A stretch of 57,015 nucleotides of DNA from Treponema sp. Its GTDB lineage: Bacteria > Spirochaetota > Spirochaetia > Treponematales > Breznakiellaceae. Shown here piece by piece: positions 41,664 to 46,681 of the stretch. Every line of letters starts with the position of its first letter. The first letter of the stretch is position 1. The position numbers and the translations under genes were made by a program. The notes beneath the pieces were generated by a model. The model did no database searches. It was not told the DNA's origin and worked only from the letters and a program-made list of their open reading frames with translations. Where the stretch lies: contig WQSN01000010.1 of the NCBI GenBank assembly GCA_009787835.1, positions 1-57,015 of the forward strand. The letters are read 5' to 3'.

Positions 41664-42741
41664 TACTGCTTATTTAGCGCTGGAAAACGGCATGATTTTT
41701 AAAGGCAAATCATTCGGCGCGCGCGCTGATGTGACGGGAGAAATAGTCTTTACCACCGGCATGACAGGTTATCTTGAAACGCTGACAGATCCAAGTTACT
41801 GCGGACAGATTGTTATGCAGACTTTTCCATTAATCGGAAACTACGGAGTAATCCCGCAGGATTTTGAAAGCGCGAATATCGGCGTGAAAGCTTATATTGT
41901 AAAGTATCCATGCTATACGCCTTCAAATTTCAGAAGCGAATACAGTCTTGACGCCTTATTGAAGGAACACGGCATCGTTGGGTTATGTGACATTGATACG
42001 CGCGCTCTTGTAAAAATTATCCGTAAAAACGGAGTTATGAACGGAAAGATAACATCCTGCGAACCAACCGGCGAGGATTTTGAAGATATAAAAAAATATG
42101 TTGTAGTCTGTCCCATTAACGCGGTCTCTTCGCGTAATGTAATAAAATGCAAACCGGAAAAAATACAGGATGCGAAGCGCATAGCGCTCATGGATTTTGG
42201 GGCTAAAAGCGGAATTGCAGACGCACTGGCGGCGAGAAACTGTGGTGTTTATTTATTTCCTCATGATACGCAGGCGCGGGATATTTTAAAAATAAAACCG
42301 GACGGCATCATGCTGAGCAACGGGCCGGGCGATCCCGCTGATCACGGCAACAGGGTTATCATGGAAACTCTGGAGGAGCTTGTAAAAACCGGCATCCCGA
42401 TTTTTGGAATTTGTATGGGTCATCAGCTTCTTGCGCTCGCAAACGGATACAAAACCAGGAAATTAAAGTTCGGCCACAGGGGAGCGAATCAGCCTGTTAA
42501 GGACACGGGGACAGGCCGGGTTTACATAACAAGCCAAAATCACGGCTATGAAGTAGTTGCAGATAACGCAGGCGGCAGTATGTATTCATTTATCAATGTC
42601 AACGACGGAAGCTGCGAAGGCATTGATTACGGCGTTTCATTCTCCGTGCAGTTTCATCCCGAAGCGAGATGCGGTCCGCTTGATACAGGTTTTCTGTTTG
42701 ACAGATTTATGGAAAGGATAAACAATCATGCCGCTGAATAA
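41641..42741 (+). CDS. carA: Carbamoyl-phosphate synthase small subunit
   Basis: ATG 41641 follows GGGGGAAG and gives MSNRMNPDTAYLALENGMIF; more upstream starts lie well inside purF. The N-terminal domain (FTTGMTGYLETLTDPSYCGQIV) is followed by a class I amidotransferase domain with the nucleophile in FGICMGHQLLALA and the late catalytic FHPEA. CarA supplies ammonia from glutamine to CarB for pyrimidine and arginine synthesis. The 366-residue length is typical. It overlaps carB by 14 bases. Confidence 0.95.
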   Translation: MSNRMNPDTAYLALENGMIFKGKSFGARADVTGEIVFTTGMTGYLETLTDPSYCGQIVMQTFPLIGNYGVIPQDFESANIGVKAYIVKYPCYTPSNFRSEYSLDALLKEHGIVGLCDIDTRALVKIIRKNGVMNGKITSCEPTGEDFEDIKKYVVVCPINAVSSRNVIKCKPEKIQDAKRIALMDFGAKSGIADALAARNCGVYLFPHDTQARDILKIKPDGIMLSNGPGDPADHGNRVIMETLEELVKTGIPIFGICMGHQLLALANGYKTRKLKFGHRGANQPVKDTGTGRVYITSQNHGYEVVADNAGGSMYSFINVNDGSCEGIDYGVSFSVQFHPEARCGPLDTGFLFDRFMERINNHAAE

Positions 42742-45700: not shown

Positions 45701-46681
45701 AAGCTTCGCAGAAAAGCAGTAGCGCTCGGCGTTCCCTGCCTTACCTCGATAGATACAGCTAACGCTCTCGCGGATTCGCTTTTATCGGATTACAGTGAAA
45801 TAAACACAGAGTTAGTTGACATTAACAATTTAAGAAGCAGCCGGATAAAACTGCCATTCACAAAAATGCACGGTACAGGAAATGATTATATTTATATCAA
45901 CTGCATGGATATGGAAATCAATTCGCCGGAATCGCTTTCTGCGCTGTTGTCCGACAGGCATACGGGCATCGGAGGAGAAGGAGTTGTGCTGATACTGCGT
46001 TCACAAATAGCCGACGCGAAAATGCGAATCTTCAATCTTGACGGCAGCGAAGGCGCAATGGCCGGAAACTCTATCCGCTGTGTGGCGAAATATTTATTTG
46101 ATAACGATATTGTGACAAAACGCAATATGCGGATTGAAACCCGAAGCGGAATAAGGGAACTTGCACTTTTTACCAGGAACGGAAAAGTATCGTCTGTAAG
46201 GGTAAACATGAGACAGGCTGAACTGAGACCTGAAAAAATTCCTGTTAATCTCACGGGCGGGAACGTGATCGCAAGACCAGTAAAAATCGGCGGCAGGGAG
46301 TACGCAATCACCTGCGTTTCAATGGGAAACCCCCACGCAGTAGTTTTCTGCGATGTAGACATAATTGATATTGGCGAAATCGGGCCGTTATTTGAAAATG
46401 ATCCGCTGTTTCCTGACAGGGTGAACATTGAGTTTGTGGAAATAATGGATATAAACCATTTAAAAATACGCGTCTGGGAAAGAGGTTCAGGCGAGACGCA
46501 GGCCTGCGGCACGGGAGCCTGCGCCGCTGTAGTAGCCGCTGTTTTAAACGGATATTGCGAAAAGGGAAAGGATATAAAAGCTCAACTGCCTGGAGGCGAG
46601 CTTGTTGTCAATTATAATGATGATACTGTTTACATGACAGGTGATTGCGTAACTGTTTTTAACGGAGTTGTGGAGATATAA
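42728..46681 (+). CDS. carB: Carbamoyl-phosphate synthase large subunit fused to a DapF-like domain
   Basis: Residues 1 to ~1035 are CarB: two ATP-grasp halves ([20 protein letters not shown] near 10; [20 protein letters not shown] near 525) and a C-terminal MGS-like allosteric domain ([18 protein letters not shown]). The chain then runs on in frame into a complete diaminopimelate-epimerase fold (about 1040-1317): [51 protein letters not shown] and [16 protein letters not shown]. Epimerase uses two cysteines. The second is present (Cys1260), but the first is alanine (Ala1112 in AMAGNS), so ordinary racemisation is doubtful. The open frame carries no internal stop or ribosome-binding site at the junction. 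This is the last gene of the glutamine operon. Confidence 0.93.
   Translation: [1317 protein letters not shown]

Follow-up and report, generated by a model that had tools for sequence, protein, structure and literature searches.

Why does the large subunit of a carbamoyl-phosphate synthase (CPSase) end in a diaminopimelate (DAP) epimerase domain, and does that domain still epimerise DAP? The question is posed by an open reading frame in the 57,015-nt stretch of Treponema sp. DNA analysed here (the window; WQSN01000010.1), which is contig C10 of a 3.08 Mb metagenome-assembled genome (MAG) in 143 contigs (G000; 96% complete, 8.4% estimated contamination). We propose, with moderate confidence, that the fusion was originally bifunctional and that the DapF half of the window protein most likely no longer epimerises DAP, being kept for a non-catalytic accessory role.

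A CarB–DapF fusion in one reading frame

The carB::dapF frame runs uninterrupted on the plus strand from an ATG at 42728 to a TAA at 46681 (42728..46681) and encodes 1317 residues plus stop. Residues 1–1036 (42728..45835) form the CarB part, in which the two CPSase halves with their ATP-grasp domains, the oligomerisation domain and an MGS-type allosteric domain (residues 918–1006) are all present (Pfam: CPSase_L_D1 twice, CPSase_L_D2 twice, CPSase_L_D3 and MGS, followed by DAP_epimerase). Against the CarB family TIGR01369 of NCBIfam, the frame scores 1384.8 bits (cut-off 1027). A linker of about residues 1037–1042 (45836..45853), placed by inspecting and comparing junctions, leads without a stop codon into the DapF-type domain (residues 1043–1317; 45854..46678), which is full length and matches TIGR00652 over residues 1044–1315 with 267.1 bits (cut-off 114.65). 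The initial annotation had described a full CarB continuing in frame into a full DapF-type domain, with no stop at a junction put at about residue 1038; the ORF list, Pfam and NCBIfam confirm this architecture. It had also called the two enzymes metabolically unlinked, and we agree that nothing connects them directly.

The gene for the partner subunit, carA (41596..42741, plus strand; ORF list, Pfam, NCBIfam), lies adjacent, its end overlapping the carB start by 14 bases. Judged from the family scores, the CarB half together with CarA most likely makes a working CPSase. The window protein resembles CarB (TIGR01369; E. coli 1bxr) in its full domain set and adjacent carA, and differs in that DapF follows the MGS domain. 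CAD is a multidomain CPSase whose fused partners belong to the same pathway. Human CPS1 (5dot) is also a multidomain CPSase fused to further domains; its partners come from the same pathway, whereas DapF comes from another. The bifunctional DapF/glutamate racemase family NF038284 shares the DapF fold, but the window protein scores 98.9 bits, below the cut-off of 350, and is not a member. No CarB–DapF fusion appears among the 60 best sequence rows or the 50 best fold rows from the PDB. In line with the initial annotation, which knew of no bifunctional enzyme of this type, we found no description of the fusion or of such an enzyme in the open-access literature searched.

An AlphaFold model of residues 520–1317 (mean pLDDT 82.4, pTM 0.61) recovers both the CPSase fold, here the C-terminal half of the CarB part, and the DapF fold. 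Because the pTM is only 0.61, the placement of the DapF domain on the CPSase is unreliable. The modelled DapF fold itself aligns closely with the solved DapF 2otn (E 2.2e-35, TM 0.89 on the target).

Distribution and origin of the fusion

The fusion is widespread and apparently undescribed in the literature searched. Scanning genome contigs, we found 79 of the best 80 loci (of 587 related places) to be fused, in a selection biased toward fused relatives; the exception is L112. Within the window genus (termite-gut 'Treponema' MAGs, window included), 17 of 36 genomes encode CarB and DapF as a single frame; in an eighteenth, G005, a fragment of DapF lies at the end of a contig. An unfused CarB of another type, 47–52% identical, occurs in 20 of the 36. 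The genus thus divides into 13 genomes with the fused type only, four with both, 16 with the unfused type only (G005 included) and three with neither; the window genome has both, its second, unfused carAB lying on contig C3. Even sampling of the class to which an Acutalibacter genome belongs gave 291 genomes, of which at least 20 are fused (at least 19 listed, plus G081 itself). In the order sample of the same genome, 108 of 127 genomes have a DapF match and 62 a fused frame, each confirmed by a CarB match just upstream of DapF. One candidate, G474, called fused by a frame-length rule, was rejected because CarB is absent there and DapF is joined to a Mur ligase.

The junction is constant. One regular expression matched 67 distinct junctions, and in 66 of them exactly 10 residues separate the CarB tail (ELVDIx) from the DapF start (FTKM). 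It missed a further 41 fused rows; the eight of these that were inspected have the same junction type with single-letter changes. The initial annotation had left room for a sequencing error hiding a stop near the junction, and for relatives that all have two separate genes. Since many independent assemblies share the fused frame, a sequencing error, hidden stop or chimeric assembly is excluded for the architecture, and the fused relatives refute the second alternative.

Several other arrangements were seen along the way. The rejected G474 locus encodes a DapF domain followed by Mur ligase domains in one frame (L192, 601-2025; 794 aa in the genome), a fusion of metabolically linked steps. At L055 (5660-6604) and L057 (12883-13728), a canonical standalone dapF lies shortly downstream of a canonical fused carB::dapF. 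Genome G051 holds a degenerate fused copy (L129) with Tyr and Ser at the catalytic places, as well as another CarB split into two pieces that lie about 8.6 kb from each other (G051:C31:306548-318330), one match having an internal stop. Four standalone DapF-like proteins from the same order, L026, L027, L028 and L029 (family f4), have Ser at the places of both catalytic Cys residues; in G046, G049 and G058 this type lies within a few kb of lysA.

In the window, carB::dapF is the last gene of a plus-strand run of glmS (36346..38181; ORF list, NCBIfam), a glnA-type glutamine synthetase gene (38210..39532; ORF list, NCBIfam), an ANTAR-domain regulator (39554..40192; ORF list, Pfam), purF (40182..41663; ORF list, NCBIfam) and carA. 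The same gene order is found in loci of termite Oscillospiraceae, for example L042 and L043. The tetranucleotide composition of the operon correlates at 0.83–0.95 with the rest of the window genome, versus 0.28–0.72 with five Clostridial loci. Because this composition fits the genome and 17 of 36 genus members are fused, a Clostridial contig mis-binned into a treponemal MAG is rejected for the architecture. Single relatives may nonetheless come from foreign contigs in a MAG, namely the Fibrobacterota-labelled L037 and contig C70. Contig C70 of the window genome carries a second glnA-ANTAR-purF ... carA-carB run broken at the contig end (L135; carB 92% identical), either a paralogue or a foreign contig. 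Elsewhere in the window we noted a sensor protein with ferredoxin, Fe-only hydrogenase C-terminal, PAS, histidine kinase and receiver domains (46775-50176; Pfam), a tmRNA (50284-50647; 144.4 bits) that is the sole Rfam match, and a protein with Listeria-Bacteroides repeats and a sulfatase-modifying-factor domain (23587-26430).

In a CarB tree of 56 rows, of which six are unfused, 50 fused CarBs and L112 share one branch with support 100, and the five other unfused rows fall outside it. With few unfused CarBs among the rows, this agrees with a single fusion event. L112 is a domain-free CarB nested inside the fused branch (support 98), so it has lost its DapF domain; its genome has dapF elsewhere. 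The gene order needed for fusion does occur, as dapF directly follows an unfused carB at L154 and a second carB overlaps a standalone dapF at L165 and L166. In a DapF tree of 106 rows the fused domains cluster, with several standalone DapFs nested among them. Treponemal CarBs lie inside a 15-row, otherwise mostly Clostridial branch (support 100), and such placement among Clostridia suggests that treponemes probably acquired the fusion horizontally, a direction of transfer read from the tree. Treponemal rows stand at more than one place among Clostridia in both trees, which points to probably more than one transfer. We propose that the in-frame fusion is old, common in Oscillospirales-type Clostridia, and that it would have passed to gut treponemes together with the neighbouring glutamine-dependent genes.

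Recurrent loss of the first catalytic cysteine

DapF uses two catalytic cysteines, C73 and C217 in E. coli numbering. In the window protein the first is replaced by Ala at residue 1112 (codon 46061..46063, plus strand), as aligned with the Cys of PDB 2otn and 9mro, while the second is kept as Cys 1260 (codon 46505..46507, plus strand; aligned with solved DapFs). The domain is therefore like DapF (TIGR00652; 2otn, 1gqz) in length, fold, C217 and most pocket residues, and unlike it in the missing first Cys and in its fusion to CarB. The Ala makes epimerase activity of this half unlikely, and the bifunctional enzyme suggested by the initial annotation finds no support in the window protein.

The loss is recurrent. 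Across all sources there are 130 distinct fused domains, counted from 131 rows less the non-fused L192, with L240 (cut) and three repeats left out; C73 is gone from 84 of them and kept in 46. All 34 sampled standalone DapFs keep it. Among 21 treponemal fused domains, 20 have no Cys at this place (A 9, G 8, S 3, C 1), and three have Ser at both catalytic places. On the tree, the pattern takes a minimum of 15 changes, with or without L192, and forms 18 all-lost clades, many forks being weakly supported.

The rest of the domain is retained. Twelve other pocket positions are kept at 95.7% in C73-less domains versus 97.3% where C73 is present, and 32 other positions invariant in standalone DapFs at 93.0% versus 96.9%; the pocket is thus kept, though not specially spared by a wide margin. 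Near the pocket there is erosion in C73-less domains, where the aligned residues 1049, 1111, 1084 and 1259 are retained at 49%, 68%, 70% and 82%, respectively. Six of these domains have Phe in place of C73, a residue that may block the pocket.

Could a site with C217 alone catalyse something else, such as a half-reaction, an elimination or another racemisation of DAP or a similar amino acid? C217 persists in 77 of the 84 C73-less domains, most of which also keep the remaining pocket, and other enzymes of the DapF fold use other substrates: the O-ureidoserine racemase 7vdy is among the structure matches of the domain, and PddB is reported as a further example (PMC8225329). The residue replacing C73, however, varies (A 40, G 26, S 10, F 6, Y 1, T 1), unlike tuning to one chemistry. 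C217 is itself lost in seven of the 84. We regard a new one-base reaction as improbable.

meso-DAP supply in fusion-bearing genomes

Loss of a catalytic cysteine is associated with the supply of meso-DAP by other routes. We took as a bypass either a standalone DapF or a meso-DAP dehydrogenase (Ddh), and compared genomes in which the cysteines of the fused gene could be read. In a first sample of 49 non-treponemal fusion genomes, a catalytic Cys is lost in 17 of 35 with a bypass and in none of 14 without (Fisher p 0.0008, uncorrected for kinship, in draft genomes that may miss genes); supported branches hold only two independent pairs for this contrast. The 49 come from 60 searched genomes, nine Treponema-labelled genomes, G106 (unfused) and G144 being left out, and two partial Ddh matches at contig ends were scored as present, both in rows with both Cys. 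In a second, systematic sample, which points the same way, Cys is lost in 29 of 32 genomes with a standalone DapF versus 19 of 30 without (p 0.015), or 18 of 29 without when G437, whose C217 is unread at a contig end, is omitted (p 0.013). Because this sample was classed by standalone DapF alone, without Ddh, the 19 Oscillospirales genomes concerned weigh neither for nor against the bypass rule.

The treponemes lost C73 although both bypasses are missing. None of the 36 genus genomes has a standalone DapF; one is present in G071, a Treponema-labelled MAG reached via L047. Ddh gave no match over the cut-off in the 36 genomes, only four weak partial matches, and was rejected as their bypass. Ornithine is described as the diamino acid of the wall for the treponemes' order and family (PMC3726837), and we infer that these termite-gut species also have an ornithine wall.

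Is the window protein nevertheless still bifunctional, with a substitute base or with its DapF part made separately from an internal start? In the window genome there are genes for aspartate kinase, Asd, DapA, DapB, DapL and a LysA-like protein (281.6 bits, just under the cut-off of 297.9) with no other DapF and no Ddh, so lysine synthesis by this route would want an epimerase, and at nine of the 67 junctions a start codon is accompanied by a Shine-Dalgarno-like stretch. The window junction is not one of these, and no candidate base stands in place of C73. Across the genus, a LysA-like gene occurs in 32 of 36 genomes and DapB in 28, with or without the fusion, and the 18 members with no DapF match mostly keep both, which argues that the genus lives without DapF. 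Continued bifunctionality is therefore very improbable. In fusion-free genus genomes such as G007, G008 and G012, DapB and a LysA-like protein occur with neither a match to the DapF family nor a Ddh scoring above the cut-off, leaving a hole in the lysine route.

We propose that in Clostridia where the fusion is the only meso-DAP source, the DapF half keeps both Cys and is probably a working epimerase. Where meso-DAP is made otherwise, or is unneeded for the wall, as with the ornithine peptidoglycan of treponemes, the first catalytic Cys would have been lost repeatedly, with the domain as such retained, including its fold and the remainder of the pocket.

Purifying selection and a putative accessory role

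The DapF half is under purifying selection: its omega is 0.07–0.11 in the five closest non-identical treponemal pairs, synonymous sites being near saturation in most treponemal pairs. Relaxed constraint is also visible in treponemes, where dN of DapF relative to CarB (medians 0.190 and 0.116) is higher than in Clostridia (0.299 and 0.245).

This relaxation would be expected if the DapF half had no role after C73 loss and were decaying as a passenger, held in frame since CarB needs an intact C-terminus. The varied replacements of C73, the degenerate L129 copy and the clean domain-free L112 fit that picture as well. Against it, omega stays at about 0.1 in treponemes and pocket retention at 96%, no frameshifted or truncated domain was seen among the full-length fused loci, and L112 is the one domain-free member among the best 80 loci (of 587). 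On balance we consider a passive passenger unlikely.

Our preferred reading, a retained accessory role, gives the DapF half of the window protein a non-catalytic function within the fused enzyme, where it may act as a dimer scaffold, as a ligand-sensing domain directly behind the MGS domain, or as both. L112, which manages without the domain, counts against this reading. DapF is dimeric, and the dimer is reported to be necessary for catalysis (PMC4227774). The same report describes a catalytically dead E. coli DapF(C73&217A) that still binds and stimulates RppH, so that there too DapF acts on another enzyme with no need of its own catalysis; unlike the fusion, that system consists of separate proteins, with an active DapF and an RNA pyrophosphohydrolase in place of a CPSase. 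In the open-access literature searched, we found no relevant paper on a DapF pseudoenzyme.

More specifically, and only tentatively, the fused DapF could be a pseudo-epimerase that has evolved recurrently. By continuing to bind DAP, or an amino acid related to it, the domain would signal to the MGS domain and so tune carbamoyl-phosphate synthesis to the supply of wall or lysine precursors.

Implications

The most interesting part of this system is the recurrent, selective loss of C73 in a conserved fused domain. For annotation, a fused copy that lacks C73 should be left out of the DapF tally when pathways are reconstructed. CarB–DapF is a fusion across unlinked pathways in which one catalytic residue has been lost many times in parallel from an otherwise preserved domain, and through it two questions become testable: what maintains a fused enzyme domain once its catalysis is unneeded, and whether a metabolic enzyme can become an allosteric domain of its neighbour. 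If the sensor reading were true, an allosteric domain would have been made by switching off a fused enzyme, and the supply of pyrimidines and arginine would be coupled to that of wall or lysine precursors.
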